From NCBI GenBank assembly GCA_004020875.1, contig SAPZ01000020.1, positions 52,719-116,718 on the forward strand: a stretch of DNA of 64,000 bases. The letters run 5' to 3'. Origin of the DNA: Mesorhizobium sp. GTDB taxonomy: Bacteria; Pseudomonadota; Alphaproteobacteria; Rhizobiales; Rhizobiaceae. Positions within the stretch are counted from its first letter, which is position 1; every line of letters begins with the position of its first letter. Positions 27,320-60,227 of the stretch are shown here, piece after piece. Under the pieces are notes generated by a model. It was not told the DNA's origin, searched no databases, and saw nothing but the letters and a program-made list of their open reading frames with translations. The position numbers were made by a program, and so were the translations under genes.

Positions 27320-27345
27320 AACTCGCAAGGGGCGCGCATTGTTCC
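27320..27345 (-). promoter_or_regulatory. Candidate EcfG promoter of the DUF3309 gene
   Basis: On the minus strand GGAAC, 19 bases, TT (GTTCC at 27341-27345 and AA at 27320-27321 on the plus strand). This fits the published Sinorhizobium RpoE2 consensus GGAAC-N18/19-TT. Confidence 0.45.
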
Positions 27346-27364
27346 ACCCGGTTCCGGGCAGATG

Positions 27365-27502
27365 CTAACGGGCCTTGGCCGAGTGGGATGATACGATCGG
27401 CGGCCCGGGATTAGCTTCAAGTCTGATCGGTACCAAAAACATGAGTGCAATCGCAATCGCGATCGACACAATGATGGCCGCGGTGCTGAAGATGTCCTTC
27501 AT
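27365..27502 (-). CDS. One-helix membrane peptide, 45 aa
   Basis: MKDIFSTAAIIVSIAIAIAL begins a protein with one membrane helix (residues 6-26) and a short polar tail (LEANPGPPIVSSHSAKAR). AGGATG precedes the ATG. A perfect EcfG-type promoter (27535-27559, minus) lies 33 bp upstream, back-to-back with another on the plus strand. No family recognised. Confidence 0.65.
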   Translation of the reverse strand: MKDIFSTAAIIVSIAIAIALMFLVPIRLEANPGPPIVSSHSAKAR

Positions 27503-27534
27503 GTTCGCATCCTGAATATTCAAAGGTGCTGAAC

Positions 27535-27559
27535 AACGCTGCGCAATACTTCCCGTTCC
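27535..27559 (-). promoter_or_regulatory. EcfG-type general-stress promoter (strict)
   Basis: Minus strand GGAAC-N16-CGTT (GTTCC 27555-27559; AACG 27535-27538). Directs transcription of the 45-aa gene ending at 27365. Confidence 0.75.
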
Positions 27560-27572
27560 ACTTCGCCCTAGC

Positions 27573-27598
27573 GGAACCTTTTTCAGATGCGCGACGTT
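27573..27598 (+). promoter_or_regulatory. EcfG-type general-stress promoter (strict)
   Basis: GGAAC at 27573-27577, 17 bases, CGTT at 27595-27598. It lies 47 bp upstream of the small membrane protein at 27646 and 13 bp from the divergent promoter. Confidence 0.75.
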
Positions 27599-27645
27599 GG
27601 GGGCAGCCCAGTTAGGGTAATCGTGGGTATAACGGAGGCTCGCTT

Positions 27646-27813
27646 ATGGGCGCATCGGTACTCATCGGCATCCTGATCACCTTCCTGGTGGTGATCCTAG
27701 TGCTGTATCTCGTGCAGCGCTTACCGCTCGATGCCCGCGCGCGACAGATCGCGCAAATCATCGTCATCATCATCGGAATCATATCCTTGCTCAGATATCT
27801 TGCGGTCTTCTAG
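27646..27813 (+). CDS. Small two-helix membrane protein (Thivi_2564-like)
   Basis: 55 aa with a strong ACGGAGG site. Two hydrophobic segments (residues 4-23 and 37-52) flank a short polar turn QRLPLDARARQ. The arrangement resembles the Thivi_2564 family of tiny membrane proteins, from memory. The strict EcfG promoter upstream makes it a likely general-stress gene. Confidence 0.7.
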   Translation: MGASVLIGILITFLVVILVLYLVQRLPLDARARQIAQIIVIIIGIISLLRYLAVF

Positions 27814-27857
27814 CCGCGATCCATATTCGGCGCGGGAAACTCCGAAGCCTGGTGTCC

Positions 27858-28163
27858 ATGAGAACCCTATGGATCGCACTCCTTGCCGGCAACTTGTCGA
27901 GTGCCGCTACGCTGCTGTGCGCCGCGAGCACCGCCCACGCCCGGCCGGACACGCGCGCCATGACTTGCGCGGACACGCAGGCGCTGATCAAACTCGACCA
28001 TGCGGTGGTTTTGACCACCGGTCCGGACACTTATGACCGCTTCGTGCGGCAATTCGGCAACGAGTGCGACTGGCCGGAAGTCCCAATATCGACGGCCGTT
28101 CCCGCCAAGGACGGCGAGTGCGGCCTCTATCGGTGCGAGGAGCCGGTCGACCTTCCCGATTGA
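27858..28163 (+). CDS. Exported Cys-containing hypothetical protein
   Basis: 101 aa from ATG 27858; a GTG 6 bp earlier is possible. The signal peptide (MRTLWIALLAGNLSSAATLL) ends near AHA-RPD. The mature part has four Cys (MTCADTQ, NECDWP, GECGLYRCEE) likely forming two disulfides. No family recognised, but the TCADTQALI start of the domain and conserved Cys pattern suggest a real secreted protein. 44 bp after the preceding membrane gene, possibly co-transcribed. Confidence 0.65.
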   Translation: MRTLWIALLAGNLSSAATLLCAASTAHARPDTRAMTCADTQALIKLDHAVVLTTGPDTYDRFVRQFGNECDWPEVPISTAVPAKDGECGLYRCEEPVDLPD

Positions 28164-28187
28164 CAACTGCCTCTTGCGGTCCCGCGC

Positions 28188-28212
28188 GGAACCATAGCAA
28201 CCTCATGCTGTT
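28188..28212 (+). promoter_or_regulatory. Candidate EcfG promoter of the GFA gene
   Basis: GGAAC at 28188-28192, 18 bases, TT at 28211-28212 (-10 TGTT). 68 bp before the GFA start codon. Confidence 0.4.
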
Positions 28213-28279: not shown

Positions 28280-28759
28280 ATGCCTGAAATCGCACGAACC
28301 GGCAGTTGCTTGTGCGGCGGCGTGCAGTTCCGCGTGGCCGGCGATCCACACCGGGTCGGCCTCTGCCACTGCAAGGATTGCCGCAAGACCAGCGGATCGG
28401 CCTTTCATGCCTATGCCGTGTGGCCGCTGCAAGCGTTCGAAATCAGCGGGATCACCAGCACCTATGGCGCTCGAAGTTTTTGCCCTACATGCGGAAGCCG
28501 CGTTCCATTCGTCGGCGAAGAGGAGGTCGAGGTCACGATCGGCAGCCTTGACGTCGCGCCGACCGAAGGCTTGGTGCCGGAATACGAGCTCTGGATTGGA
28601 AGACGCGAAACCTGGCTGCAGGCCCTCCCCGCGGCACGTCAGTTCGAACATGACCGTGCCGCCGTTGATTCGGTTGCCGGTGATGAAATCGACCCCGGGG
28701 CCGCGGCAGAAGTCGGCCTAGATCGGATCGCTGGCAGACCTAAGTCTGAACGGCGATGA
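28280..28759 (+). CDS. GFA-family (glutathione-dependent formaldehyde-activating type) protein
   Basis: 159 aa with a CGGAGGAACGG site. Zinc ligands follow the GFA/Mss4-like fold: SCLCGGVQF (C-x-C), LCHCKDCRKTSG (C-x-C-x2-C) and FCPTCGSRVPF (C-x2-C). Most GFA proteins are not the true formaldehyde enzyme and their substrates are unknown. The last 45 residues (HDRAAVDSVAGDEIDPGAAA...) extend past the usual end and are low-complexity. Confidence 0.82.
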   Translation: MPEIARTGSCLCGGVQFRVAGDPHRVGLCHCKDCRKTSGSAFHAYAVWPLQAFEISGITSTYGARSFCPTCGSRVPFVGEEEVEVTIGSLDVAPTEGLVPEYELWIGRRETWLQALPAARQFEHDRAAVDSVAGDEIDPGAAAEVGLDRIAGRPKSERR

Positions 28760-31282: not shown

Positions 31283-31609
31283 TCACTCGCAGGATTTCGA
31301 TTTGAATCTTCGGATCACCACCTCGAAGACGATGTCCGAAATCCACATGGCCGAGACGCCGATCAGGAAGGCGGCGGCGAGCGTGGTGGTGTCGTCGGCG
31401 GCGTTGGGCATCGGCAAGCCGCTTGCCTGAACCCAGGCGACGGCAGGCAATGTCAGATAGGCGGCGGCCAAGGCGCCGCAGATGGGCGAGGCAATCATCT
31501 CGCGCAGCTTGTAGCGATGGCGCGACAGCGCCCGCAGTACACCGCCGGCGAGCCCCGCCGCCACGACCTGGCCCTTGATGCCCAGAAGATCGAAAATGTC
31601 ATGCATCAC
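31283..31609 (-). CDS. Holin-like phage membrane protein
   Basis: 108 aa with three hydrophobic stretches (about residues 12-26, 40-62, 78-97) and a basic C-terminus VVIRRFKSKSC, a holin-like layout. It is the last gene of the phage lysis cassette; its start overlaps the stop of the Rz1-like gene by 4 bp. The holin assignment rests on topology and position. Confidence 0.6.
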   Translation of the reverse strand: MMHDIFDLLGIKGQVVAAGLAGGVLRALSRHRYKLREMIASPICGALAAAYLTLPAVAWVQASGLPMPNAADDTTTLAAAFLIGVSAMWISDIVFEVVIRRFKSKSCE

Positions 31610-31800
31610 GGCCTCCAGCCACAGAGCTTCTCGCCCTTGCGGTTGTGCGCAAGCAGCGCTCTCGCCTCCTGATCCGACAGCCTTTCGACAACCCTGGCGG
31701 AGAGGCGCATAGGCGCGGCGGCGGCGCAGAAACCGACTCTGGCCGTCGTGCAGCCGGCAAGCGCGGCGACGGTCGCTGCGAGGATCAATCCCTTGCCCAT
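31606..31800 (-). CDS. Rz1-like small outer-membrane lipoprotein (o-spanin)
   Basis: 64 aa. A lipoprotein signal MGKGLILAATVAALAGCTTA gives the lipobox LAGC with Cys at residue 16; the mature part is 48 aa, ending LLAHNRKGEKLCGWRP. It overlaps the end of the Rz-like gene in another frame by 16 bp, the overlapping layout of spanin pairs. I infer that it spans to the outer membrane with the inner partner encoded at 31785. Confidence 0.6.
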   Translation of the reverse strand: MGKGLILAATVAALAGCTTARVGFCAAAAPMRLSARVVERLSDQEARALLAHNRKGEKLCGWRP

Positions 31801-32131: not shown

Positions 32132-32133
32132 GG

Positions 32134-33482: not shown

Positions 33483-33493
33483 GGCAACTCCAG

Positions 33494-33667: not shown

Positions 33668-33671
33668 AAGA

Positions 33672-35955: not shown

Positions 35956-35980
35956 GGAACCAACCGTGGCCCGACGGGTT
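35956..35980 (+). promoter_or_regulatory. Candidate EcfG promoter
   Basis: GGAAC at 35956-35960, 18 bases, TT at 35979-35980 (-10 GGTT), 68 bp before the exported protein at 36049. Confidence 0.4.
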
Positions 35981-36048: not shown

Positions 36049-36366
36049 ATGCTTACGAAGATTCTCGCGGCTTCGGCCCTGACAATCGGCCTCGCCACGG
36101 CGGCGATGGCCCAGACCGCGAATTCGACCAACGGCGCGGCCGGCAGCGGTCAAAGCATCACCGTCGACCCGAGGACGCCGGCCACCCCACCGCCTGACCA
36201 GATGGCGCCTGACACCGGCACGACGGGCAGCATCACCGGCGGCGATATGAATTCCAACGCCGACAAGAACTGCCCGAACAGCCCGCAGGGCGCGCAGGGC
36301 GATGCCAACAACACCGCCGCCAGCACGGTGCAGCCGAACGTCAACGATAACAATTGCGGCAAGTAG
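36049..36366 (+). CDS. Exported Asn/Thr/Pro-rich protein
   Basis: 105 aa, AGAGGAGAAGAATC before the ATG. Signal peptide MLTKILAASALTIGLATAAM, cut at AMA-Q. The mature protein is low-complexity (TANSTNGAAGSG, TPATPPPDQMAPDTGTTG) with two Cys (KNCPNSP and NNCGK). It resembles the secreted protein at 55056-55355 in its Asn/Pro/Thr bias and terminal NCGxx. Likely a periplasmic stress protein of unknown role, with its own terminator. Confidence 0.7.
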   Translation: MLTKILAASALTIGLATAAMAQTANSTNGAAGSGQSITVDPRTPATPPPDQMAPDTGTTGSITGGDMNSNADKNCPNSPQGAQGDANNTAASTVQPNVNDNNCGK

Positions 36367-36447: not shown

Positions 36448-36472
36448 GGAACCATGCGGCCTTCCGACCGTT
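36448..36472 (+). promoter_or_regulatory. EcfG-type general-stress promoter (strict)
   Basis: GGAAC at 36448-36452, 16 bases, CGTT at 36469-36472, 24 bp before the start codon of the DUF883-like gene. Confidence 0.75.
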
Positions 36473-36496: not shown

Positions 36497-37039
36497 ATGG
36501 CAGACAACGATAGCAGTAGCGGTGGCGCCGCAAACGGCACCGGCACCTCGAGCAGCAGCCCAGCCAGCGAAGCACGCCCCCGTAACGCCGCCTCGCGTAG
36601 CAGCCGCGCTTCGCGCAGCGGCGCGGCATCGCGCGGCAACGCGGCTTCCACCAGGGCGTCCGAAGGCGCAATGAAGAAGCAGATCGCGGAGTTGAAGCGC
36701 GAGGTGAACCGCCTGAACCGCGCCCTTTCCGAGCAGGCCGAGGAAGCGACCGAGACCGCGCAGGGCTGGTACCAGAGTGCGGCCGAGAGCGCGTCGAACC
36801 TCTATAGCGGGGCGGCCGACCGCGCGTCGAACCTTTACAGCGGAGCCTCCGGTCGCGCGTCGCGGGCGGCAAGCCAATTGCGCAGCCAGGCGCAGAGCGT
36901 TTCGGAAACCGTGCAGCAGAATCCGGGCACCTTCTCGACGGCCATGCTGATCGGCGGCCTTGTCGGGCTGCTGGCCGGCATGGCGATCAGCCGGAACTCG
37001 GACCCGGAGCCGGATTGGCTGCATCGCTGGCACAGATAG
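36497..37039 (+). CDS. DUF883-like membrane-anchored stress protein
   Basis: 180 aa, AAGGAGAAACCC before the ATG. The N-terminus (1-58) is a disordered Ser/Ala/Arg stretch. A coiled coil follows (MKKQIAELKREVNRLNRALS, then EEATETAQGWYQSAAE), with repeats of SASNLYSGAADRASNLYSGA. A single C-terminal membrane helix is AMLIGGLVGLLAGMAI. This order matches ElaB/YgaM/YqjD-type DUF883 proteins, which tether to the inner membrane and bind ribosomes in E. coli; that role is not shown here. A strict EcfG promoter lies upstream. Confidence 0.75.
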   Translation: MADNDSSSGGAANGTGTSSSSPASEARPRNAASRSSRASRSGAASRGNAASTRASEGAMKKQIAELKREVNRLNRALSEQAEEATETAQGWYQSAAESASNLYSGAADRASNLYSGASGRASRAASQLRSQAQSVSETVQQNPGTFSTAMLIGGLVGLLAGMAISRNSDPEPDWLHRWHR

Positions 37040-40936: not shown

Positions 40937-42016
40937 TCAAACGGCGATGTCGCTGTCAGTATCGGTGCCGAGCTGCGGGACGATGATCGCCTCGAGCGGG
41001 GCGTCGAGCGTCCATTTCAAGCTGCCGGGCGAGCGTTCGAGGCTGGAGGAACCGCTCAGCGACTGCGGAGCCACCCGCTGCAGCACCACGGTGCCGAAGC
41101 CCTTGCGTTCGGCGGCTCCCTTCTCCTTGCCAGTCTTCTCGGCGATCCCATTTCCTGCCGCGCCGGACGTCTCCTGCCACAGAAGATGAAACCGCCGCCG
41201 CGCGTCCGGACCCGTCTCGACCTTCCAGGTGATTTCCACATGGCCGCCGTCGACGGCAAGAGCGCCATATTTGGAGGAGTTTGTGCCGAGCTCATGGAAG
41301 GCCATGCCCAGATTCTGCACCGCATTCGACTGCAGCGTCAGCAGCGGCCCGGACAGCGAGATACGTTCCTCGTGGCCGAAGGGCTTCAGATGCTCCTGTA
41401 CCAGGTCGAACAGGCTGGCGCCGGCCCATTCCGACGTGACCAGAAGGTCGTGCGAGCGTGACAGCGCCATGATGCGCGCGCGGATCATCTGCTCGAACTC
41501 ACTGGGATCGGTCGAGCGCTTGCTGGTTTCCCTGACCATGGACAGGATCACCGCGAACTGGTTCTTGACGCGGTGATTGACCTCGCGCATCAGGAGCCGG
41601 ATGCGGCGCTCGCTTTCCTTGGCGGACGTGATATCGCGGGCGATCTGGGAGGCGCCGACGATCTCGCCCGTACTGTTCCTGATGGGAGAGACGGTGATCG
41701 AGACGGCGATCAACGAGCCGTCCTTGCGCTTGCGCGTCGTCTCAAGACTCCCCACGCCTTCGCCCCGGCGGATACGGCCGATGATCTCGGCCTCCTCGTT
41801 GTGCATGTGGTCGGGGATCAAGAGCAGGATCGACTGGCCGATCACCTCCTCGGCGCTGTAGCCGAACATACGCTCGGCCGCGTGGTTCCAATCGGTGATG
41901 ATGCTGTTGAGGTCCTTGCCGATGATAGCGTCATAGGACGAGTCGACGATCGCCGCGAGGCGAGCGTCAGCGTTGGCGTTCGGACGAAAAATCCCCCCTG
42001 GACTGGTCATGCGCAT
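40937..42016 (-). CDS. PAS-HWE sensor histidine kinase
   Basis: 359 aa. An N-terminal PAS/PAC (residues 15-135: IVDSSYDAIIGKDLNSIITD, WNHAAERMFGYSAEEVIGQS, then SLETTRKRKDGSLIAVSI) leads to an HWE/HisKA_2 core with phospho-His in LLMREVNHRVKNQFAVILSM and the N-box in FHELGTNSSKYGAL. No membrane segment, so cytoplasmic. HWE kinases in this group often feed PhyR of the general stress response; that is inference. No response regulator adjacent. The start is one of several ATGs near 42010-42016. Confidence 0.87.
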   Translation of the reverse strand: MRMTSPGGIFRPNANADARLAAIVDSSYDAIIGKDLNSIITDWNHAAERMFGYSAEEVIGQSILLLIPDHMHNEEAEIIGRIRRGEGVGSLETTRKRKDGSLIAVSITVSPIRNSTGEIVGASQIARDITSAKESERRIRLLMREVNHRVKNQFAVILSMVRETSKRSTDPSEFEQMIRARIMALSRSHDLLVTSEWAGASLFDLVQEHLKPFGHEERISLSGPLLTLQSNAVQNLGMAFHELGTNSSKYGALAVDGGHVEITWKVETGPDARRRFHLLWQETSGAAGNGIAEKTGKEKGAAERKGFGTVVLQRVAPQSLSGSSSLERSPGSLKWTLDAPLEAIIVPQLGTDTDSDIAV

Positions 42017-42067
42017 CAAATAGGGCCGCCCAAGACCAAGGCAACGTGTCCGCTGGATCGCATCTGC

Positions 42068-43956: not shown

Positions 43957-44370
43957 TCAGTCCCTGGAATCCAGCTGGTCGAGGATGGCGAGGCCGGTTT
44001 CGTATTTCTCAGGCGCCACACCCGCCTGGTGCGCCTGCCAGAGATTGTCGCGCAGATCGGCTATCTTCACCGGCAATGCCAGCTCGTTAGAGGCGGCGCG
44101 GCAGAGGAAGCCCTCCTCGCTCTCGTCCATGCGCCGCGTCAACGCATCGACCGCGGCCACCACCGACTGGCCGAAACCGGCGCCCTCCAGCCTCTCCAAA
44201 GTCCACCCGTCACCCTTCTCGACAACATCGTGCAGGTAGGCGACGGTCTTTTCGTCCAGCGTCTCGACGGCATCGGCAACGCGCCTCAGATGTTCGATAT
44301 AGGGCCGGCCGGTCTTGTCCTTTTGGCCGCGGTGAGCCTGCTCGGCGATCTTTGCTGTCTGGTGAAGCAT
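43957..44370 (-). CDS. HD-domain phosphohydrolase (small alarmone hydrolase-like)
   Basis: 137 aa. HD-domain metal ligands are visible: AEQAHRGQKDKTGRPYIEHL (His near residue 12 and His near 26) and VAYLHDVVEKGDG (HD pair near 47-48), with NLWQAHQ later. The AHRGQKDKTGxPYxxH start is that of RelA/SpoT hydrolase domains, so this may be a small alarmone hydrolase that clears (p)ppGpp. It has no synthetase part. An EcfG-like promoter candidate lies at 44504-44528. Confidence 0.78.
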   Translation of the reverse strand: MLHQTAKIAEQAHRGQKDKTGRPYIEHLRRVADAVETLDEKTVAYLHDVVEKGDGWTLERLEGAGFGQSVVAAVDALTRRMDESEEGFLCRAASNELALPVKIADLRDNLWQAHQAGVAPEKYETGLAILDQLDSRD

Positions 44371-44503: not shown

Positions 44504-44528
44504 AACAGCGGCGCCGAGCGAATGTTCC
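44504..44528 (-). promoter_or_regulatory. Candidate EcfG promoter of the HD-domain gene
   Basis: Minus strand GGAAC-N18-TT (GTTCC at 44524-44528, AA at 44504-44505), -10 TGTT, 134 bp before the start. The surrounding gap 44371-44827 (457 bp) has no other supportable gene. Confidence 0.35.
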
Positions 44529-44771: not shown

Positions 44772-44796
44772 GGAACCTCGCGACCGCGCTGCCGTT
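44772..44796 (+). promoter_or_regulatory. EcfG-type general-stress promoter (strict)
   Basis: GGAAC at 44772-44776, 16 bases, CGTT at 44793-44796, 31 bp before the CsbD start codon. Confidence 0.78.
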
Positions 44797-44827: not shown

Positions 44828-45031
44828 ATGGATTGGAACCGCGTAGAAGGCAATTGGAAGCAGATGAAGGGCAAGGTCAAGGAACAGTGGGGCAAGCTCA
44901 CCGACGACGATCTCGACCGCATCGCGGGAAAGCGCGACCAGCTCGAAGGCAAGATTCAGGAGCGCTACGGCATCGAGAAGGATCGGGTGCGCCGCGACAT
45001 CGATGACTGGTACAGCCGCCAAGGCTGGTGA
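44828..45031 (+). CDS. CsbD-family stress protein
   Basis: 67 aa, AGGAGG upstream. MDWNRVEGNWKQMKGKVKEQ then WGKLTDDDLDRIAGKRDQLE: the classic CsbD pattern. CsbD is a sigma-B-dependent stress protein in Bacillus; its rhizobial homologues are general-stress genes. The strict EcfG promoter ahead fits. The 265 bp downstream (45032-45296) contains no gene. Confidence 0.93.
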   Translation: MDWNRVEGNWKQMKGKVKEQWGKLTDDDLDRIAGKRDQLEGKIQERYGIEKDRVRRDIDDWYSRQGW

Positions 45032-45263: not shown

Positions 45264-45288
45264 GGAACCTTCATTCGGGGTCCGCATT
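45264..45288 (+). promoter_or_regulatory. Candidate EcfG promoter
   Basis: GGAAC at 45264-45268, 18 bases, TT at 45287-45288 (-10 CATT). It sits only 9 bp from the next start codon, so the mRNA would be almost leaderless if this is used. Confidence 0.3.
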
Positions 45289-45296: not shown

Positions 45297-45521
45297 ATGG
45301 ATGTTTTCGACACAAATTCTCTGGTCATCGAACAGGCAAAGGCCCTGCGCGCCGAAAACAGCCGCATGCGGGAACTGGCATGGGCATATGTGGAGCAGTC
45401 CAGGGTCCTCGCCCGGCATTTGGCGGCGATACGGAACCAGTCAGGTCGGGCATTGCCGAAGATGGGCGACGGACACTTGACTGAGATCGAGCGGGCCCTA
45501 GATAACCTGGATCGCTGGTAA
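45297..45521 (+). CDS. Small helical protein, 74 aa
   Basis: From ATG 45297: MDVFDTNSLVIEQAKALRAE, then NSRMRELAWAYVEQSRVLAR, then HLAAIRNQSGRALPKMGDGH. Strongly amphipathic coiled-coil-like helix. No ribosome site is visible, which matches the near-leaderless promoter placement. No family recognised. Confidence 0.55.
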   Translation: MDVFDTNSLVIEQAKALRAENSRMRELAWAYVEQSRVLARHLAAIRNQSGRALPKMGDGHLTEIERALDNLDRW

Positions 45522-47057: not shown

Positions 47058-47082
47058 GGAACAAGTCCGGGCGCTTCCGGTT
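47058..47082 (+). promoter_or_regulatory. Candidate EcfG promoter
   Basis: GGAAC at 47058-47062, 18 bases, TT at 47081-47082 (-10 GGTT), 24 bp before the next start codon, the same distance as for the strict promoter at 36448. Confidence 0.45.
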
Positions 47083-47106
47083 TCGCATTGATCAGGACTA
47101 CGTGAA

Positions 47107-47310
47107 ATGGCCCAGGATCGACCTCATAACGAAGCTCTCGCGAAGCTGCTGAGACAGCAGTTTTCCAGCGAGTTCTTAAGACGGCACCTGCGCGCGTGGC
47201 CACTTTTCCGAGTTGACCGTCAGCTTCCCGAGCGCCTTCGGGCCCTGCTTGAAAGGCTCGGGCGAAGGAGCGGTCGAAACGGTTATCACAAAGGGGATGA
47301 CAAGCGCTGA
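47107..47310 (+). CDS. Hypothetical basic protein, 67 aa
   Basis: MAQDRPHNEALAKLLRQQFS, then SEFLRRHLRAWPLFRVDRQL, then PERLRALLERLGRRSGRNGY. The ALAKLLRQQF ... LPERLRALLERLG pattern weakly recalls the helices of NepR anti-sigma factors (IPDRFLDLLxxLD), but the spacing differs. Ribosome site weak. A promoter candidate lies upstream. Confidence 0.5.
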   Translation: MAQDRPHNEALAKLLRQQFSSEFLRRHLRAWPLFRVDRQLPERLRALLERLGRRSGRNGYHKGDDKR

Positions 47311-48156: not shown

Positions 48157-48181
48157 GGAACCGATTCCCCGTCGCTCCATT
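48157..48181 (+). promoter_or_regulatory. Candidate EcfG promoter of the Nramp-like gene
   Basis: GGAAC at 48157-48161, 18 bases, TT at 48180-48181 (-10 CATT), 129 bp before the start. The weakest of the set. Confidence 0.3.
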
Positions 48182-48309: not shown

Positions 48310-49620
48310 ATGACCGAGGTCGGTGCCCGGGTCGAGAAAGAACAAAGCAACATTCTGGCAAAAGGCCCGTTCCAGCGGCTCGTTCGCACGGTCGGGCCGG
48401 GCTTTATCACCGGCGCGTCCGATGATGATCCGTCCGGCATCGGAACCTACAGCCAGGCCGGCGCCCAGCTCGGCTTCAACATCGGCTGGGCCATGCTGTT
48501 CACCTTCCCGCTGATGGCGGCGATCCAGGAGATCGCGGCTCGCATCGGACGCACCACCGGCAAGGGCATCTCCGGCAACCTCAGCCGGCATTATCCGGCC
48601 TCGCTGCTTTACGTGGTCGTGATGCTGCTGTTCGTCGCCAACGTCATCAACATCGGCGCCGATCTCAGCGCTATGGCGGATGCGTTGAAACTGCTGGTCG
48701 GCGGGCCCAGCCCGGTCTACGTCATCACCTTCGCGGTGGTCTGCGTCTGCGCGATCGTGTTCCTCGACTACACGCGTTATGTGAAGGTCCTCAAATGGAC
48801 GACACTGAGCCTGTTCGCCTATGTCGTTGCGATGTTCGCCGCGAATGTGCCCTGGGCCGACGCGGCCAAGGGGCTGTTCATTCCGCATGTTGAATGGAGC
48901 GGCGCGTTCGCCACCACGCTGCTCGCGATCCTGGGCACGACCATCTCGCCCTATCTGTTCTTCTGGCAAGCCTCGCAGGAGGTGGAGGAGGAGGAACTGA
49001 AGCCTACCGCCAAGCCGCTGAGGTGGGCGCCGTGGCAGGCGTCAAGGGCGTTCCAGCGGATACGCGCCGACACGCTGGTGGGAATGGCCTTCTCGAATTT
49101 GATCGCCCTCGCAATCGTATTCACCACGGCCGCCACTCTACACAAGGCGGGGGTGACGGACATTGCCTCGTCCACGGACGCGGCAAAGGCGCTCGAGCCG
49201 GCTGCCGGCAAATTCGCCTTCATCATCTTCTCGGCCGGCATCATCGGCACCGGACTTCTGGCGGTTCCGGTGCTGGCGGGCTCAGCGGCTTTCGCCGTGG
49301 GCGAGGCGCTGCGCTGGAAGGTTGGGCTGCGGCGCCGACCGAAGGAGGCGGTGGCGTTCTACGCCACGCTCGCCGCCGCGACGGCGCTTGGCACCGTCAT
49401 CATGTTCACGCCGATCGACCCGATCAAGGCGCTCTACTGGAGCGCTGTGATCAACGGCCTATGCGCCGTCCCGGTGATGGTCGTCATGATGCTGATGTCC
49501 GGCCGAAAGGACATTATGGGGGAGTTCCCGGTCCAGGGCTGGCTGCGGGCCCTGGGCTGGTTGTCGACGATAATAATGGCCGCTTCATCGGCGGGCCTCG
49601 TGGCGCAGTGGTTTGTATAA
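48310..49620 (+). CDS. Nramp-related metal ion transporter with altered metal site
   Basis: 436 aa, about eleven membrane helices of the LeuT/APC fold. TM1 has VGPGFITGASDDDPSGIGTY where classical Nramp has DPGN. TM6 has LGTTISPYLFFWQASQEVEE where classical Nramp has the Met-Pro-His motif. The metal-binding Met is thus missing, as in the Nramp-related magnesium transporters and aluminium transporter branches. It is probably not a classic MntH Mn2+ importer. A bidirectional terminator follows. Confidence 0.82.
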   Translation: MTEVGARVEKEQSNILAKGPFQRLVRTVGPGFITGASDDDPSGIGTYSQAGAQLGFNIGWAMLFTFPLMAAIQEIAARIGRTTGKGISGNLSRHYPASLLYVVVMLLFVANVINIGADLSAMADALKLLVGGPSPVYVITFAVVCVCAIVFLDYTRYVKVLKWTTLSLFAYVVAMFAANVPWADAAKGLFIPHVEWSGAFATTLLAILGTTISPYLFFWQASQEVEEEELKPTAKPLRWAPWQASRAFQRIRADTLVGMAFSNLIALAIVFTTAATLHKAGVTDIASSTDAAKALEPAAGKFAFIIFSAGIIGTGLLAVPVLAGSAAFAVGEALRWKVGLRRRPKEAVAFYATLAAATALGTVIMFTPIDPIKALYWSAVINGLCAVPVMVVMMLMSGRKDIMGEFPVQGWLRALGWLSTIIMAASSAGLVAQWFV

Positions 49621-50227: not shown

Positions 50228-50252
50228 GGAACAAGTTCGAAAAAACTGTGTT
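50228..50252 (+). promoter_or_regulatory. Candidate EcfG promoter of the DUF892 gene
   Basis: GGAAC at 50228-50232, 18 bases, TT at 50251-50252 (-10 TGTT), 34 bp before the start codon. DUF892 genes are known members of the rhizobial general-stress regulon, which strengthens the call. Confidence 0.55.
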
Positions 50253-50286: not shown

Positions 50287-50799
50287 ATGCCGACAACGAA
50301 GGCGGCCTCGAACAAGGGGCTTAACGAACTTTTCCACGACACGCTGAAGGACATCTATTTCGCCGAGAAGAAGATTCTCGCAACGCTGCCCAAGATGGCC
50401 AAGGCAGCGCAGGACGACGCGCTGAAGGCCGCCTTCGAAAAGCACCGCGACCAGACCGAAGAACATGTCGCGCGCCTGGAGGAAGTGTTCGAGGTGATCG
50501 ACAAGAAGCCGGTGGGCAAGACCTGCCAGGCGATCATGGGCATCACCGAGGAAGGCGCCGAGATCATGGACGAGTACAAGGGCTCGCCCTCGCTCGACGC
50601 GGGACTGCTGGCCGCGGCGCAGGCCGTCGAGCACTATGAGATTTCGCGCTACGGCACGCTCAGGACCTGGGCGCAGGAACTTGGCCTGACCGAGGCCGTC
50701 ACCTTGCTCGACAAGACGCTGAACGAAGAGAAGGAAACGGACGTCGCGCTAACCAAGCTCGCCGAGTCCGCGGTCAACGTCGCTGCTGAGGCAGCCTGA
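50287..50799 (+). CDS. DUF892 (YciE/YciF) ferritin-like stress protein
   Basis: 170 aa from ATG 50287 (CAGGAGATG upstream); the longer frame to 50089 is not needed. Four-helix ferritin-like fold with metal-type carboxylates: ELFHDTLKDIYFAEKKILAT, KHRDQTEEHVARLEEVFEVI, AAAQAVEHYEISRYGTLRTW, and LLDKTLNEEKETDVAL. Family members respond to osmotic, oxidative and stationary-phase stress. Cytoplasmic. Confidence 0.92.
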   Translation: MPTTKAASNKGLNELFHDTLKDIYFAEKKILATLPKMAKAAQDDALKAAFEKHRDQTEEHVARLEEVFEVIDKKPVGKTCQAIMGITEEGAEIMDEYKGSPSLDAGLLAAAQAVEHYEISRYGTLRTWAQELGLTEAVTLLDKTLNEEKETDVALTKLAESAVNVAAEAA

Positions 50800-50873: not shown

Positions 50874-50898
50874 GGAACTTCAGCCCCGGCAGGGAGTT
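50874..50898 (+). promoter_or_regulatory. Candidate EcfG promoter
   Basis: GGAAC at 50874-50878, 18 bases, TT at 50897-50898 (-10 AGTT), 23 bp before the start at 50922. Confidence 0.45.
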
Positions 50899-50921: not shown

Positions 50922-51131
50922 ATGACAAAAGCGTCGCTCCACCGGCTGAAGGGCCTAGGTTATCTGATCTCGACGGTCAGCGTGATATTGCTCGTCATCG
51001 TAAGCTGGTCGAGAGCATCGCAAAGTCCGTTGCTGATTGCCTGCCTGCTCGGCGGCGCCGCGACCTCGATCGCCGGCATGTTCTGCCGCTGGCTTTCCTA
51101 CGAAATCGAGAAGCGCTGGGACGACCGGTAA
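50922..51131 (+). CDS. Small two-helix membrane protein, 69 aa
   Basis: MTKASLHRLKGLGYLISTVS with VILLVIVSW as helix one, then SPLLIACLLGGAATSIAGMF as helix two, and a charged end SYEIEKRWDDR. No family name known to me, but the sequence is fully membrane-protein-like. Ribosome site weak. Promoter candidate upstream. Confidence 0.65.
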   Translation: MTKASLHRLKGLGYLISTVSVILLVIVSWSRASQSPLLIACLLGGAATSIAGMFCRWLSYEIEKRWDDR

Positions 51132-51181: not shown

Positions 51182-52192
51182 CTACCGCGGGCGGTCCGGC
51201 CTGTTGGCGTCGGTTTGCGACATCAGCACAGTGACAAGGCAGGCGATGACAATCCATGCGGCGACTTCAATGCCCGAGGCGCCGCGCGCCGACGGCGGGA
51301 CGGTGGCGGGCGCCACCGGCTCGGCGGCCACCACTGGCGCAAGGTCCGGCCGGCTGCCGCGGCGCACCGAATAGGCGCGCGTGATCTCGGCGCCGAAGAG
51401 GAAGATCTGCGCCGAATAGTAGACCCAGACCAGCACCACCATCAGGGCTCCGGCCGCGCCGTAGGAGGTGGCGATCGCGCTGGTGCCGATGTACCAGCCG
51501 ATGAGCGACTTGCCGACGGTGAACAGCAGCGCGGTGACCAGCGCGCCGACGCCGACATCGCGCCATTTGAGCGTGCGGTCCGGCAGGACCTTGTAGATCG
51601 CGGCGAAGAGGAAGGCGATCAGCGCGAAGGAGACGATCGTGTTGATGGCGCTGAGGATCAGTTCCCCGAACGGCAGGCTCCGGTTGATGATCTCGCCCAG
51701 CGCCGCGATAGCCGTGCTGGCGGCGAGCGATACCAGCAGCAGGAAGCCGAGCGCCGCCACGAGGCCGAGGCTGGCCGCCCTCGCCCTTACAAGGCGCGAC
51801 AGCGACACCCCGTTGGGCTTCACCTTCCAGATTTCGTTGAGCGACTGCTGCATCTCGCCGAAGACGCCCGACGCCGTCACCAAAAGCGTCACCACTCCGA
51901 TCAGCGTGGCAAGCGCGCTCGACCAGCCATGCGAGGCGGTCTCTATCGTGGCCTTCAGCAGGTCGGCGCTCTGTGGCCCCATCACGCCCGATATCTGAGC
52001 CGACAGCGCCAGCTGGGCGGCATCGTTGCCGATGACGAAACCGGCGATCGCGACGACGATCAACAGGATCGGCGCCAGCGACGTGGTGGCGTAGAAGGCC
52101 ATCGCCGCGCCATGGCTCAGCGCATTGTCATCTATGTAGCCGGTGACGCTTTCCTTCAGCAGTACCCAGCCTTCGTCGACCCAGCGCAGCAT
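51182..52192 (-). CDS. YihY/BrkB-family inner-membrane protein
   Basis: 336 aa from ATG 52192 (AGGTGAGGGAG upstream). Six membrane helices with the YihY motifs DDNALSHGAAMAFYATTSLA near the N-terminus, WRDVGVGALVTALLFTVGKS, and SYGAAGALMVVLVWVYYSAQ ending in GAEITRAYSVRRG. A C-terminal extension with another helix (GIEVAAWIVIACLVTVLMSQ) follows. The former ribonuclease BN name is wrong for this family; exact role unknown. Confidence 0.88.
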   Translation of the reverse strand: MLRWVDEGWVLLKESVTGYIDDNALSHGAAMAFYATTSLAPILLIVVAIAGFVIGNDAAQLALSAQISGVMGPQSADLLKATIETASHGWSSALATLIGVVTLLVTASGVFGEMQQSLNEIWKVKPNGVSLSRLVRARAASLGLVAALGFLLLVSLAASTAIAALGEIINRSLPFGELILSAINTIVSFALIAFLFAAIYKVLPDRTLKWRDVGVGALVTALLFTVGKSLIGWYIGTSAIATSYGAAGALMVVLVWVYYSAQIFLFGAEITRAYSVRRGSRPDLAPVVAAEPVAPATVPPSARGASGIEVAAWIVIACLVTVLMSQTDANRPDRPR

Positions 52193-52480
52193 CTCCCTCA
52201 CCTGTTTCGGACACGGACCGAGCGCGGTTCGGTGTCGGCTTTGTCGCGCTGCATATTTCCTGCCATCGCTGCCAAGCCCTCTGTTGAGCGGGCCGGGTGG
52301 GACAAGAGCTCGACTGCCTTTTCGTTGGCCAGGGCGAGAAGCCGGAGAAACCAGCCCTGTTCTCTTTGCCACCAGGTCCGGCTGACGCGGCCCGCCAATC
52401 ACAACCCGGCGCGGGCGCTATGGTTCCGGGAACACCCGAGGGCCGGAGGCTCGAGGAATGCGGCCCAGCGCCGATGCCAT

Positions 52481-52664: not shown

Positions 52665-53687
52665 ATGGGTATTTCGGCAATGGATTTGGAAGACCTCTAC
52701 CGGATTCTGCGGACAGGTCACGTGCAGGCCCAAGGCATTGTCGACACTGTTCCCGATCCCATGCTCGTGCTGGATTCGGCCCTGACCGTCCAGAGCGCCA
52801 ACCGCGCCTTCTTCAGAACGTTCGCGGTCGACCGTTACGACACGATCGGACAACACCTGTACGACCTGGGCAACGGTCAATGGGACATTCCCGAGCTGCG
52901 TCGTCTCCTTGGAGAGGTGATCCCGAAAAGCTCGGCGGTGATCGATTACAAAGTGGAGCATGATTTCCCGCACATCGGGAAGAAGATCATGCTTCTGACA
53001 GCGCGCACCGTGTTCAATCCGGACAACGTCAGCCACCTCATGTTGCTGTCGATCGTCGACATTACGGACAGAAGCCGAAAAGAAGCGGAATTCGAAGCGG
53101 TCTTTGGAGAATTGCGGCACCGGCTGAAGAACGTGCTCGGGCTGGTGCGGGCCCTAGCCAACCAAACCAAAGCGGAAGGCGTTTCGGGAGAGGAGTATCG
53201 CACGGCGTTCCTCGGCCGGCTGCAAGCCGTTGCGGATGCCAATGATCTGGCCTTGAGCGATCATGGTGACGATAGTCTCGATGCCCTGGTGGCGCGCGCA
53301 ACGAAGCCCTTCCAAACCGCTCCGGAGACGATCATCGTCGAGCCCAGCCCGCCCCTGACGTTGGCCTCGAAGGAGATAATGTCGCTGAGTCTCCTGCTGC
53401 ACGAACTGGCAACCAACGCGGTCAAGTATGGCGCTTTGTCAGCTCCGGCCGGGACGGTTCGAATTCGATGGGAGGTCGAGCAAGGCGATCATCCATTGCT
53501 GCGCCTGTCCTGGCGCGAGAGCGGCGGCCCGCCTGTACGCAAGCCCGCCTCGACAGGGTACGGCACCCAGCTCATTCAATTCGCGATCGCATACAATCTC
53601 GGTGGCAACGTGGAACAGAATTATCGAACCGAGGGTTTCGAAGCCGAGATAGTCGTCCCCCTCGAAAGGGCCGCTCGCCCAGATTGA
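52665..53687 (+). CDS. PAS-HWE/HisKA_2 sensor histidine kinase
   Basis: About 340 aa; ATG 52665 or 52680. An N-terminal PAS domain (VDTVPDPMLVLDSALTVQSA, NRAFFRTFAVDRYDTIGQHL) lacks the NCRFLQ flavin motif of LOV sensors. The phosphorylation site is VFGELRHRLKNVLGLVRALA and the N-box is LLHELATNAVKYGALS. Cytoplasmic. A single-domain receiver gene starts 7 bp after the stop, so the two form a two-component pair. HWE kinases of this type are known partners of the stress phosphorelay. Confidence 0.87.
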   Translation: MGISAMDLEDLYRILRTGHVQAQGIVDTVPDPMLVLDSALTVQSANRAFFRTFAVDRYDTIGQHLYDLGNGQWDIPELRRLLGEVIPKSSAVIDYKVEHDFPHIGKKIMLLTARTVFNPDNVSHLMLLSIVDITDRSRKEAEFEAVFGELRHRLKNVLGLVRALANQTKAEGVSGEEYRTAFLGRLQAVADANDLALSDHGDDSLDALVARATKPFQTAPETIIVEPSPPLTLASKEIMSLSLLLHELATNAVKYGALSAPAGTVRIRWEVEQGDHPLLRLSWRESGGPPVRKPASTGYGTQLIQFAIAYNLGGNVEQNYRTEGFEAEIVVPLERAARPD

Positions 53688-53693: not shown

Positions 53694-54050
53694 GTGCAAA
53701 AGACCATCCTGATCGTCGAAGATGAATTCATCATCGCGATGGATCTTAAAGTCATTCTCGAACGCCTGGGATGGCGGGTCTTAGGCCCGGTCCCCAAGGT
53801 CGCAAACGCGCTCCGCCTGCTGGAAGACGAACTGCCGACATTAGCCTTGCTCGACGTGAATTTAGGCGACCAACTTGTCACGCCCGTAGCCGAGGCCTTG
53901 CGCAGCCGCGGTGTGCCTTTTGCGGTGGCGAGCGCTTATGACAAGCCGGAACTCATCGGCGGGGCCGTCCTGGCGGGCGTACCCAATGCAGGCAAACCGA
54001 CCTCGGAGTGGAGCCTGCTGGAGGTTCTGGCGAAGCTCTCGCCGCCCTGA
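53694..54050 (+). CDS. Single-domain response regulator
   Basis: 118 aa from GTG 53694. Receiver fold: acidic pair in ILIVEDEFIIAMDLKVILER, phospho-acceptor Asp in LALLDVNLGDQLV (near residue 53), Ser/Thr switch in FAVASAYDKP, and Lys in NAGKPTSEWSLLEVL. No output domain, so it passes phosphate or acts by binding, like the Sdr-type receivers of the general stress response. Read as the partner of the kinase just upstream. Confidence 0.88.
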   Translation: MQKTILIVEDEFIIAMDLKVILERLGWRVLGPVPKVANALRLLEDELPTLALLDVNLGDQLVTPVAEALRSRGVPFAVASAYDKPELIGGAVLAGVPNAGKPTSEWSLLEVLAKLSPP

Positions 54051-57282: not shown

Positions 57283-58002
57283 CTATCTCGGCTCGCGCGA
57301 CATGCTGAGATAGGTCGGATCGAATTCGGCGACCGTGACCAGCCGCTCCCAGTCGAGGATCGTGATCATATGGTTGGTCCAGCTGATGACGTTCATGCGG
57401 CGCAGCGTTCCGATCACCCTGTTCATGTGGACGACGGAAAGGCCCAGCACGTCGGCGAGCTGGGCCTGCGACAGCGGCAGATGGAAGCTCATGTCCCGGG
57501 TCTTCTTCACCACCTGAAGCCTGACGAACAGCTCGCATATTAGATGCGCGAGATGGGACAGCTTGGAGCGGCGGCCCATGGCCACGATCCATTCGCGATG
57601 GATGGCTCCGTCGACCAGCGTGTCCAGCCAGAGCAATCGGGTGAGATGCGGCGCCTGCTCGGTGATCGTCTTCAGCTTGCTGTGCTCGGCCGCCGCCACA
57701 TGACAGGGCGACAGCGCGACGATGCCGTGATCCATCGTTTTCAGCAGGAACGCATGCAGGTCCACGAAATCGCCCGCGACCTGGAGTGAGGTGAACTGTC
57801 GGCCCCCGTCCTCCAGAACCTTGTAGCGGGCAGCCAGCCCGTCAATGATCAGGGTGCTGTAGGTCGGCCTGGTTCCTTCGACAACGATATCCTCCCCCAC
57901 GCCGACATATTTCTCGATCGACAAGGTCGATGTGAGCAGAGCTTTTTCTTCGTCCGAGAGGGCGTCATGCTGGCCCAGATTGAGAAAGAGTGATTCCAGC
58001 AT
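57283..58002 (-). CDS. Crp/Fnr-family transcriptional regulator (paralogue 2)
   Basis: 239 aa from ATG 58002 with GGAGGCAGCCGG. Same length, start and end as the protein at 46124, with long shared blocks such as RLLWLDTLVDGAIHREWIVA and LADVLGLSVVHMNRVI. The two differ most in the N-terminal beta barrel (SIEKYVGVGEDIVVEGTRPT), where a ligand would bind, so they may read different signals at related DNA sites. No Fnr cysteines. Confidence 0.88.
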   Translation of the reverse strand: MLESLFLNLGQHDALSDEEKALLTSTLSIEKYVGVGEDIVVEGTRPTYSTLIIDGLAARYKVLEDGGRQFTSLQVAGDFVDLHAFLLKTMDHGIVALSPCHVAAAEHSKLKTITEQAPHLTRLLWLDTLVDGAIHREWIVAMGRRSKLSHLAHLICELFVRLQVVKKTRDMSFHLPLSQAQLADVLGLSVVHMNRVIGTLRRMNVISWTNHMITILDWERLVTVAEFDPTYLSMSREPR

Positions 58003-58111: not shown

Positions 58112-58136
58112 GGAACCATGATCGCGTCCGCGAATT
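58112..58136 (+). promoter_or_regulatory. Candidate EcfG promoter
   Basis: GGAAC at 58112-58116, 18 bases, TT at 58135-58136 (-10 AATT), 21 bp before the DUF6894 start. Confidence 0.35.
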
Positions 58137-58157: not shown

Positions 58158-58397
58158 GTGCCGATGCAACGCTTCTATTTCGACCTGTACAACGCCGAGC
58201 ACAGCCAGGAAGACACTGAGGGACAGCTCTTCGCCAGCCGTGAGCGCGCCGGCATGGAGGCACTGCGCATCCTGCATGACGTCGCCCGCGACGAGATGAC
58301 GGGCGGCAGGCTTCTGACGATCACGGTCAAGGTGCTCGACGAAAAGCGTGACCAGATTTTCGAAGCGTCGCTGACGCTGGATTCGGCCTGGACCTGA
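58158..58397 (+). CDS. DUF6894-like protein
   Basis: 79 aa from GTG 58158; ATG 58164 possible. MPMQRFYFDLYNAEHSQEDT, then EGQLFASRERAGMEALRILH, then DVARDEMTGGRLLTITVKVL. Rhizobial hypothetical family with the MPRFYFDLxxGxxxxxDxEG start and ARDEMPGG block. Function unknown. The dehalogenase-like gene starts 36 bp later. Confidence 0.75.
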   Translation: MPMQRFYFDLYNAEHSQEDTEGQLFASRERAGMEALRILHDVARDEMTGGRLLTITVKVLDEKRDQIFEASLTLDSAWT

Positions 58398-58433
58398 GGC
58401 AGCCGGCGCCGGTCTCGTTCCCGGAGGCAAGCA

Positions 58434-59327
58434 ATGTTCGACGATTTCGACAGCCGCGAGATCGACACCGGTGAGGCCAGGATCTTCGCTCGCCGCGCCG
58501 GCACGGGCCCCGCCCTGCTTCTGCTGCACGGCTTTCCGCAGACGCATGCGATGTGGCGCGAGGTGGCGCCAAGCCTGGCGCGGGATTTCACTGTCGTCTG
58601 CGCCGATTTGCGCGGCTATGGGCGAAGCTCTTGCCCGACATCGGCCGCCGATCATGCGCCCTATGCCAAGCGCGCCATGGCCGCCGACATGGTGGTGCTG
58701 ATGGAGAGGTTGGGTTTCAGGCGCTTCATGGTCGCCGGTCACGATCGCGGCGGGCGTGTCGCCTACCGGCTGGCGATCGATCATCCGGACCGCGTCGAGA
58801 AGCTCGCTGTGCTCGATATCATTCCCACCGCCGATGCGTGGGCCCGCGCCGACGCAAGACTGGCCCTCGGCTACTGGCCGTGGTCGTTGTTGGCGCAAGC
58901 CGAGCCGCTGCCGGAGACAATGCTCGCGGCCGCAGCCGATGCAATCGTCGACAATGCGCTTTCCGGCTGGGGATCGTCGCCCGACGCGTTCCCGCCCGGG
59001 GTGCGGCAACTCTATGTCGACGCGCTGCGCGACCCGGCGCACATCCATGCCATTTGCGAGGAATATCGCGCGGCGGCGTCCCTCGACCGCGAGCATGACC
59101 ATGCTGACAGGAAGACCGGCCGGCACATCGCCTGCCCGCTGCTGGCGCTATGGAGCGAGCATGGGGCGCTGGCTGAATGGTACGTCGAGGAAGGCGGCCC
59201 TGAGGCGCTGTGGCGGCACTGGGCCGACGACGTCAGCGGCGGCGCGTTGCCCGGCGGTCATTTCTTTCCGGAGGAGTCGCCGATCGAAACTGCAGCCACG
59301 CTGGACGCATTCTTCTCCGGAAGATAG
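58434..59327 (+). CDS. Haloacetate dehalogenase-like alpha/beta hydrolase
   Basis: 297 aa. Oxyanion motif LLLHGFPQTHAMWREVAPSL; DLRGYGRSSCP; nucleophile Asp in MVAGHDRGGRVAYRLAIDHP; acid Asp in AVLDIIPT; His in PGGHFFPEE. The Arg pair near the nucleophile fits binding of a carboxylate, as in fluoroacetate dehalogenase. As I recall, that enzyme has a His-Trp pair in KIYHWSFLAQ that holds the halogen; here the segment is YWPWSLLAQAE, with Pro in the His position, so defluorination is doubtful. Cytoplasmic; substrate unproven. Confidence 0.82.
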   Translation: MFDDFDSREIDTGEARIFARRAGTGPALLLLHGFPQTHAMWREVAPSLARDFTVVCADLRGYGRSSCPTSAADHAPYAKRAMAADMVVLMERLGFRRFMVAGHDRGGRVAYRLAIDHPDRVEKLAVLDIIPTADAWARADARLALGYWPWSLLAQAEPLPETMLAAAADAIVDNALSGWGSSPDAFPPGVRQLYVDALRDPAHIHAICEEYRAAASLDREHDHADRKTGRHIACPLLALWSEHGALAEWYVEEGGPEALWRHWADDVSGGALPGGHFFPEESPIETAATLDAFFSGR

Positions 59328-59367
59328 CAGGCGCCCGACAGGCGTTGGCGCGAGCCGGCCAAGCGCC

Positions 59368-59592
59368 TCACGCAAGCATCAGGTATAGCAACGGCACCGC
59401 AGCAAGGCCGATCGCCATTGCGACGAGCGTGGCATGGCCCAGACGCTCCGCGCGCCTGGCGATGTCGGCTATCTCAGCCTCATCATTGATGACGTCGAGG
59501 AATGAAAGATCGAGAGGGGCGGCAGGTAGGTTGTCGTTGGCAGGCAGGGTTTCGACAGTCTGCCGGGTGGGCTTTGCAGAGATATAGGTCAA
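59368..59592 (-). CDS. Small membrane protein, 74 aa
   Basis: MTYISAKPTRQTVETLPAND, then NLPAAPLDLSFLDVINDEAE, and one C-terminal helix TLVAMAIGLAAVPLLYLML. Tail-anchored layout. No family recognised. The gap to 59918 (326 bp) has no other gene. Confidence 0.6.
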   Translation of the reverse strand: MTYISAKPTRQTVETLPANDNLPAAPLDLSFLDVINDEAEIADIARRAERLGHATLVAMAIGLAAVPLLYLMLA

Positions 59593-59818
59593 AACGTCGT
59601 CTCGCTCCGAGGCCGGCTGCGCGGCTTCTTGTTGGTGGATTTTGGTGCCCGCCGATTTACGCGGGTACGATCGGCGGGCACCAGCATGGCCGCCGATGGA
59701 GGGGGCTTTCTCGTCGGCCGCTCACCAAATTCCTAGAATCGCCACTGGTTCCACCAGCCAGCCCATTGCGTCGAATTCGTCGGACTTCAGTCTGGCGAAT
59801 TCACGAAATATTTCGGGC

Positions 59819-59843
59819 GGAACATCGGTTGCCGGCACATGTT
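59819..59843 (+). promoter_or_regulatory. Candidate EcfG promoter of the KGG gene
   Basis: GGAAC at 59819-59823, 18 bases, TT at 59842-59843 (-10 TGTT), 75 bp before the start. Confidence 0.45.
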
Positions 59844-59918
59844 CACCCTACTCAAGGATGTCGAACGCGTCCTTGAATTTCACCCCGAAGAAGAATCCGA
59901 ACCAACGGAGAGTTCGAT

Positions 59919-60134
59919 ATGCCCAATCAAGGCGGAACCCACGAACAGCACGTCAAGGCCGGCCAGCAGAGCCACAAGAACCGCGACGACCAGCATCGCG
60001 GCGGCGGACAGCAGCAGGCCGAGGACCGCAACATGGGTCAGCGGAGCGAGGGCCAGCACAGAGGCGGCAGCGGAAACTTCGCCGAAGACCGTCAGCGCGC
60101 CTCGGAGGCAGGCCGGAAAGGCGGCCAGCGCTGA
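59919..60134 (+). CDS. KGG-repeat stress protein
   Basis: 71 aa with AACGGAGAG. Highly hydrophilic Gln/Gly/His-rich (MPNQGGTHEQHVKAGQQSHK), ending GGSGNFAEDRQRASEAGRKG and GQR, the single KGG (stress-induced bacterial acidophilic repeat) motif of general-stress proteins. Likely disordered and protective. Own terminator follows. Confidence 0.82.
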   Translation: MPNQGGTHEQHVKAGQQSHKNRDDQHRGGGQQQAEDRNMGQRSEGQHRGGSGNFAEDRQRASEAGRKGGQR

Positions 60135-60147
60135 GTTCAAAACAAAG

Positions 60148-60176
60148 ATGGCGTCCGCGTTCGCGGGCGCCATTTC
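60148..60176 (+). terminator. Terminator of the KGG gene
   Basis: 12-bp stem with one G-U pair (60148-60159 with 60162-60173), followed by TTCATT. 14 bp after the stop. Confidence 0.65.
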
Positions 60177-60202
60177 ATTGTCCGCGAGATCGATCCCGGG
60201 AT

Positions 60203-60227
60203 GGAACATCTTCGCCGTCCTCCAGTT
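60203..60227 (+). promoter_or_regulatory. Candidate EcfG promoter
   Basis: GGAAC at 60203-60207, 18 bases, TT at 60226-60227 (-10 AGTT), 61 bp before the start at 60289. It would drive the run of small genes to 61620. Confidence 0.45.

Follow-up and report, generated by a model that had tools for sequence, protein, structure and literature searches.

Predicted EcfG-type general-stress promoters in a loose cluster on a Mesorhizobium contig, several of which appear to keep their own −10 box across the genus

The window considered here is a stretch of 64,000 nucleotides at the end of contig C18 of a Mesorhizobium genome (6.66 Mb in 103 contigs), and between 27 and 61 kb it carries a cluster of sites resembling promoters of the EcfG/RpoE2 type. 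We put at about 0.91 the probability that the alphaproteobacterial general stress response uses these sites as promoters, and judging by sequence most of them are very probably EcfG-type. The initial annotation had listed 16 such sites, all of which are found again with the same coordinates, strand, and spacing. Its interpretation remains the best reading given the motif, its spacing and strand, its local enrichment, a genome that also carries phyR, nepR, and ecfG, and the recurrence of the sites before orthologous genes within the genus. By analogy with the known system, stress would lead HWE-family kinases, two of which are encoded in the cluster, to phosphorylate PhyR, PhyR would take NepR off EcfG, and RNA polymerase carrying EcfG would bind and start transcription from GGAAC-N16/17-(N)GTT. 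The genes switched on would be those for CsbD, DUF892, KGG, DUF6894, DUF3309, and GFA proteins, small hydrophobic proteins, Nramp, and BrkB, whose roles would likewise be those expected of stress-induced products. A switch of this type is already known, and it is the clustering and the promoter-specific −10 boxes that deserve specialist attention. What is provided is a sequence-tested map of a segment of a general-stress regulon in Mesorhizobium, in which small families with no known function are tied to the stress response by recurring promoters, and in which the −10 boxes bear on why EcfG promoters vary at that position and on what second EcfG factors do.

All 17 candidates treated below have GGAAC at −35, N16/17, and, at −10, CGTT or another box with TT as its last two bases, by way of their selection; in the scans these forms are written GGAAC-N18-TT and GGAAC-N19-TT. 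Because the earlier reader had picked sites by spacing, every spacing from 6 to 39 was scanned. Between 27 and 61 kb there are 21 matches to GGAAC-N18-TT, 14 of them intergenic and at most 300 bp from a start on the same strand (intergenic sense), while no spacing apart from 18-19 yields more than 10 matches or more than 4 intergenic sense ones. With the ending GTT, N18 has 15 matches and 12 intergenic sense ones, against maxima of 2 and 2 outside 18-19. The figure of 14 includes two open reading frames (ORFs) added by hand (47107 and 59919) and the removal of one overlapping gene call; unedited gene calls give 12 intergenic sense N18 sites, whereas other spacings average 1.09 and never exceed 4. 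The proposal that the constant 18-base spacing goes beyond chance is thus borne out by the N18 peak. Over the whole window, GGAAC-N16..19-TT has 35 matches versus 17.9 ± 4.9 in shuffled sequence, and none of 100 shuffles reaches 35.

The density is local. There are no intergenic sense N18 sites in positions 1-27 kb of the window, and 20 background stretches of 20 kb from the same genome (400 kb, with 57.4 kb intergenic) contain 3, which is like the mean of 2.81 (maximum 6) for other spacings, i.e., the level of chance. In the cluster there are 12 over 12.6 kb of intergenic DNA, a density 18-fold above that background (conditional binomial p = 3 × 10−7), so that the equal density elsewhere in the genome which the initial annotation had named as grounds for dropping its proposal is not what the 400 kb shows. 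Genome-wide, GGAACMWT-N14/15-GTT has 58 matches versus 7 for the reversed pattern, and 6 of the 58 lie inside these 33 kb. The strict form GGAAC-N16/17-CGTT shows no excess over the genome (127 matches versus 165 for the reversed pattern), and therefore a lone match means little without position or conservation. Of the 21 N18 matches the earlier list has 14, along with two at N19; those it lacks are 28078−, 35958−, 38110−, 41865−, 48349−, 52403−, and 59728−. Among these, 52403− is a good promoter candidate, a 17th beside the listed 16. The sites had also been described as lying before genes on the correct strand, and 16 of the 17 do so at about 23-211 nt before an ORF, with 45264 only 8 nt away from its own.

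Recurrence was followed by searches of 61 Mesorhizobium genomes, with the window's own locus included in every count. Loci were taken best-first (for CsbD the best 30 of 57 matches, for the kinase the best 20 of 30, for the hydrolase the best 20 of 38), giving 20 loci for each of the four promoters of the 27-kb group (DUF3309, the 45-residue ORF, 27646, and GFA), 30 for HD and CsbD, 16 for DUF892 and 50922, and 20 for DUF6894, KGG, and 60289. As a control, an N18/19 site was sought anywhere within 320 bp, and it is found in 131/135 orthologue upstream regions, the 45-residue ORF excluded; in the same 135 regions non-overlapping pairs of other spacings give only 2-44. In relatives L003, L004, L006, L007, and others the spacing between site and gene stays roughly constant and the spacers change. 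In the orthologue comparison, mean spacer identity for the CsbD, DUF892, HD, and KGG promoters is 0.38-0.66. Genome G033 shares a good deal of the cluster, its 27-37 kb sites among it; the G033 stretch is without the core of the prophage described below, Nramp, and the ORFs behind 45264 and 47058.

Taking the predicted promoters from the left, the one at 27320..27345 (minus strand, GGAAC-N19-TT, −10 AGTT) precedes the gene for a 54-residue DUF3309 protein (27105..27269, minus; Pfam PF11752, E = 4 × 10−10). A site is present in 9/9 orthologues, always with AGTT, and 6 of 8 distinct sequences have the N18 spacing. Also on the minus strand, the predicted promoter at 27535..27559 (CGTT) is 32 nt before the ORF of a conserved 45-residue protein (27365..27502) with one hydrophobic stretch by eye and 67-93% identity in 7 other genomes; the site is in 8/8 orthologues, all CGTT. 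On the plus strand, 27573..27598 (N19, CGTT) stands before the gene for a 55-residue hydrophobic protein (27646..27813; no Pfam family, 84-98% identity in the other orthologues), with a site in 7/8 orthologues, all CGTT. The predicted promoter at 28188..28212 (plus, TGTT) is followed by a gene for a GFA-domain protein (28280..28759, plus; PF04828, E = 1 × 10−21), and 8/8 orthologues have a site, with −10 boxes of GGTT, TGTT, or AATT. The candidate at 35956..35980 (plus, GGTT), kept in G033, the one relative compared, lies before a gene for a 105-residue protein (36049..36366, plus) with a signal-like N-terminus by eye, 84% identity in G033, and no Pfam family. It is near-palindromic and also reads as 35958−; such EcfG-type sites readable on both strands are seen in the window at 35956-35982, in L001 at 15183-15210, and on contig C10 at 41998-42025 and 66430-66456. 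The predicted promoter at 36448..36472 (plus, CGTT), 24 nt before the ORF of a 180-residue protein (36497..37039, plus), is kept in G033 and has near-identical sites in SOD10 and G035.

Farther along, 44504..44528 (minus, TGTT) is predicted as the promoter of a gene for an HD_4 domain protein (43957..44370, minus; PF13328, E = 9 × 10−9), with a site in 10/10 orthologues, all TGTT. The CsbD gene (44828..45031, plus; PF05532, E = 5 × 10−24) has its predicted promoter at 44772..44796 (plus), and all 30 of the best 30 loci have a site with CGTT, at a mean spacer identity of 0.38. The weak candidate at 45264..45288 (plus, CATT) ends 7-8 bp before a 74-residue ORF (45297..45521, plus; no Pfam family); the DNA behind it is found in two relatives only, G027 and G037, where GGAAC and CATTTGTT are kept over a diverged spacer. 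Another weak candidate, 47058..47083 (plus), before a 67-residue ORF (47107..47310, plus; no Pfam family), can be followed in one relative only, whose DNA is almost identical. Before the Nramp-family transporter gene (48310..49620, plus; PF01566, E = 6 × 10−84) the predicted promoter is 48157..48181 (plus, CATT), and a GGAACCG-type site is found upstream in 7/8 relatives having the gene, at a distance varying from 46 to 217 nt. In a genome collection, the best seven named hits of this transporter all belong to Mesorhizobium (76-90% identity), which points to that genus. The predicted promoter at 50228..50252 (plus, TGTT) serves a DUF892 gene (50287..50799, plus; PF05974, E = 3 × 10−57), whose product we take to be ferritin-like; the site is in 16/16 loci, with a first −10 base of T, A, or G and never C. 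Immediately downstream, 50874..50898 (plus, AGTT) precedes a gene for a 69-residue hydrophobic protein (50922..51131, plus; no Pfam family, 74-88% identity in the other orthologues), with a site in 12/13 orthologues. The added candidate, 52403..52427 (minus, GGTT), is about 210 nt before a gene for a BrkB-family membrane protein (51182..52192, minus; PF03631, E = 9 × 10−50); it is in the same place in L004 and G033, and in L003 and L009 sites lie at other upstream positions. At the right end, 58112..58136 (plus, AATT) is predicted before the DUF6894 gene (58164..58397, plus; PF21834, E = 4 × 10−15; site in 13/15 orthologues, all AATT or GATT), 59819..59843 (plus, TGTT) before the gene for a KGG-motif protein (59919..60134, plus; PF10685, E = 3 × 10−7; site in 11/11), and 60203..60227 (plus, AGTT) before the gene for a 164-residue protein (60289..60783, plus; site in 15/15, AGTT or GGTT), which is 79-94% identical in the other orthologues and, when read in the shorter form 60334-60783, matches no Pfam family. 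Of the target families named in the initial annotation, CsbD, DUF892, KGG, DUF3309, DUF6894, and GFA have their Pfam matches; the 180-residue protein at 36497, which the earlier reader had labeled DUF883-like, has none.

The regulators are encoded elsewhere. Contig C9 has phyR (with both sigma-like domains and the receiver), nepR, and ecfG in the sole phyR-nepR-ecfG locus of the genome; apart from this nepR the genome has no NepR match, the neighboring kinase gene is HWE-like by eye, and there are 7 N18 sites in 9 kb. The largest cluster seen is on contig C10 at 20-100 kb, with 26 N18 sites in 80 kb, and it contains genes for catalase, HWE kinases, a CheB/CheR protein, small proteins, and an ECF15-like (extracytoplasmic function group 15) sigma factor, ecfG2, whose product is 46% identical to EcfG. 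With those of C9 and C10, the genome has at least three clusters including the window's, and the singular island that had been announced is neither the only one nor the densest. No ecfG2 lies within the window. The gene is found in 29/61 Mesorhizobium genomes (E ≤ 1 × 10−45), and in two other genomes having it the neighborhood has 13 and 14 N18 sites, with no more than 4 at any spacing apart from 18-19. As a side observation, C10 also encodes a 200-residue protein (L104:15456-16058, minus) whose N-terminus looks like a receiver, both by eye and from its resemblance to response regulators encoded on the Rhizobium etli plasmid p42f, and which has a C-terminal match to PhyR_sigma2 (30.1 bits, cut-off 27), a domain order the reverse of PhyR; G039 and G058 have relatives at 62-63% identity within their ecfG2 clusters. 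In the one-contig genome G039, many GGAACAW-N14-DGTT sites lie on contig 1 at 2.62-2.95 Mb, a stretch that includes CsbD, and near ecfG2 at 5.51-5.57 Mb.

Several points weigh against reading all of these sites as EcfG promoters. Close relatives are over-represented in the orthologue counts because loci were taken best-first. The site search required GGAAC and TT and left the first two −10 bases free, so the invariance of GGAAC and TT among the matches is no evidence in itself. Some orthologues are without a site, namely 1/8 for 27646, 2/15 for DUF6894, 1/13 for 50922, and 1/8 for Nramp (in L008), as are, among the named relatives, 50922 in L007 and the 67% identical DUF892 proteins in L006 and L007. 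The candidates at 47058, 45264, and 35956 draw little support from comparison. Also, the ECF15-like paralog on C10 could serve some of the sites.

The −10 box was then compared within each promoter, counting distinct sequences. CsbD has CGTT in 26/26, HD has TGTT in 9/9, DUF3309 has AGTT in 8/8, DUF6894 has AATT or GATT in 11/11, and DUF892 has T, A, or G before GTT in 13/13. Others are variable, GFA having GGTT, TGTT, or AATT and 50922 having four kinds, once CGTT. The first two −10 bases of CsbD are C and G in 26/26, and in its spacer columns the fraction of the commonest base is 0.3-0.7. A permutation test of −10 class by promoter gives a heterogeneity of 117.8 versus a shuffle maximum of 27.9, and nine spacer positions give 17-71; because the test ignores relatedness, only the excess over the spacer-position values counts. 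Hence several promoters appear, on these alignments, to keep their own −10 box across the genus, and it is possibly new that they do so (CsbD always with CGTT, DUF892 never) with or without a second sigma factor. Selection for promoter strength would be the simplest account. Going further, one might picture the −10 box as a setting held by selection and not by drift, a genus-wide code in which CGTT and the other boxes form separate, enduring levels that govern how strongly or in what order the response runs, within a regulon arranged in clusters, some of which bring along a second EcfG of their own together with a receiver protein that ends in a PhyR-sigma2-like domain, the domain order being reversed; we hold this wider picture to be tentative and, taken whole, rather doubtful.

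The initial annotation had set four strict CGTT sites apart from the others. The non-CGTT sites stand as probable EcfG-type promoters, and they are not simply weaker copies of the strict four, because the −10 variants recur in orthologues and because TGTT, GGTT, and CATT are transcribed by EcfG in Sphingopyxis. The Sphingopyxis study (PMC7083833) describes in vitro transcription by EcfG from templates with CGTT, TGTT, CATT, and GGTT, with differing output. Those four boxes cover 13/17 of the window's candidates; AGTT and AATT (4/17) are absent from these templates.

A different division of labor would have the non-CGTT sites (13/17 in the window) read mainly by EcfG2 of C10 and the CGTT sites by the canonical EcfG. 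The contigs lean that way, since CGTT is found in 4/28 of the N18 plus N19-GTT sites on C10 versus 8/10 at the phyR locus (Fisher p = 0.0004). So do the counts of GGAACAW-N14-DGTT in the 61 genomes, with a median of 44 where ecfG2 is present (29 genomes) versus 18.5 where it is absent (32; p = 4 × 10−10, relatedness ignored), and no clear difference for the CGTT pattern (p = 0.11), the two patterns being otherwise unmatched. That difference may, however, stem from the ecfG2 neighborhood itself carrying such promoters. The DUF6894 site is in 10/10 orthologues in ecfG2 genomes versus 3/5 in others, the two lacking it being only 41% and 55% identical. On the other hand, genomes without a close ecfG2 keep the non-CGTT forms for DUF892 (5/5), HD (3/3), and 60289 (5/5), and since most non-CGTT promoters that can be followed keep their form without it, ecfG2 is not needed to explain them. 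For R. etli no motif is reported for EcfG2-dependent genes, with the EcfG1 motif in 1/19 units (PMC3892343), and overexpression of RpoE5 in Sinorhizobium meliloti leads to one putative target (PMC6180224). We consider the division unlikely.

Another ECF group with a similar −35, such as ECF26 with GGAATA/GT, might read some of the sites. ECF26 sigma factors of S. meliloti do have a related −35, and the RpoE6 motif is somewhat like that of ECF15 (PMC6180224); the Mesorhizobium genome also has 13 further ECF-like matches to EcfG. The enrichment, though, sits at GGAAC with N18/19-TT, the ECF15 form, in scans that used the GGAAC −35 and not variants such as GGAATA, and a role for such a group seems very improbable. 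Least probable of all, and hardly credible for the set as a whole, is that the matches are chance combined with selection by the earlier reader. GGAAC-N-TT is short, and the genome-wide count of the strict form given above leaves little weight to any single match, but for most sites chance is contradicted by the spacing control, by the background density, and by sites that reappear at the corresponding position although the spacers have diverged. Chance may account for 47058, and perhaps for 45264.

Among the closest known systems, the EcfG regulon of Sphingopyxis granuli TFA (PMC7083833) likewise has a GGAAC −35 and a flexible −10 with CGTT commonest, csbD is a measured direct EcfG target, and phyR genes and an HWE kinase are among the targets. 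The difference is that the −10 there varies within one genome, with up to 14 boxes in a 79-unit regulon, while in Mesorhizobium single promoters appear to keep theirs across the genus. R. etli similarly has a canonical ecfG with nepR/phyR and a second EcfG elsewhere, and the part of that account available has no mention of regulon clustering (PMC3892343). In our scan of R. etli p42f around ecfG2 (40000-80000), there are 12 intergenic sense N18 sites in 40 kb versus at most 3 at spacings outside 18-19, and CGTT is found in 3/13 distinct N18/19 sites; this region and Mesorhizobium C10 both hold HWE kinase and CheB/CheR genes. For S. meliloti, which is another genus, PMC6180224 names RpoE2 as the general-stress sigma factor and gives an rpoE5 promoter with GGAAC and the ending GGCATT, as in a site before Mesorhizobium ecfG2. 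A literature search turned up no paper whose title deals with clustering of the EcfG regulon in Mesorhizobium, most subscription journals being outside its scope.

As to extent, the 33-kb island of the initial annotation is better described as a loose cluster interrupted by unrelated genes and a prophage remnant. No candidate promoter lies in 36.5-44.5 kb or 52.5-58.1 kb of the window. A mobile-island reading may still hold but is not supported: there is no tRNA in the window, no integrase among the part of its proteins that was scanned, and no clear base-composition signal (G+C 0.58-0.68 in the cluster versus 0.61-0.67 to its left). The prophage remnant is at 31283-35714, with the N- and C-terminal parts of terminase in separate ORFs, the C-terminal one also having a peptidoglycan-active domain. 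The G033 stretch lacks 5 of the remnant's ORFs. The first of the two cluster kinases is a PAS-HWE histidine kinase (40937..42016, minus; HWE_HK, E = 1 × 10−24), a possible stress sensor. The other, an HWE histidine kinase (52722..53687, plus; HWE_HK, E = 1 × 10−13, scanned from 52761), is beside a single-domain receiver (53694..54050, plus; Response_reg, E = 3 × 10−6, 27.6 bits, below the cut-off of 30.2). This kinase gene contains an N19 match with GGTT (53612-53637), 57 nt upstream of the receiver gene and present in G033 too; it may be coding conservation only. Two Crp/Fnr-type paralogs are encoded in the window at 46124-46843 and 57283-58002, with a look-alike third near ecfG on C9 by eye, and outside the cluster, at 16331-17636, an ECF sigma factor gene is followed by one for a DUF4142 protein.

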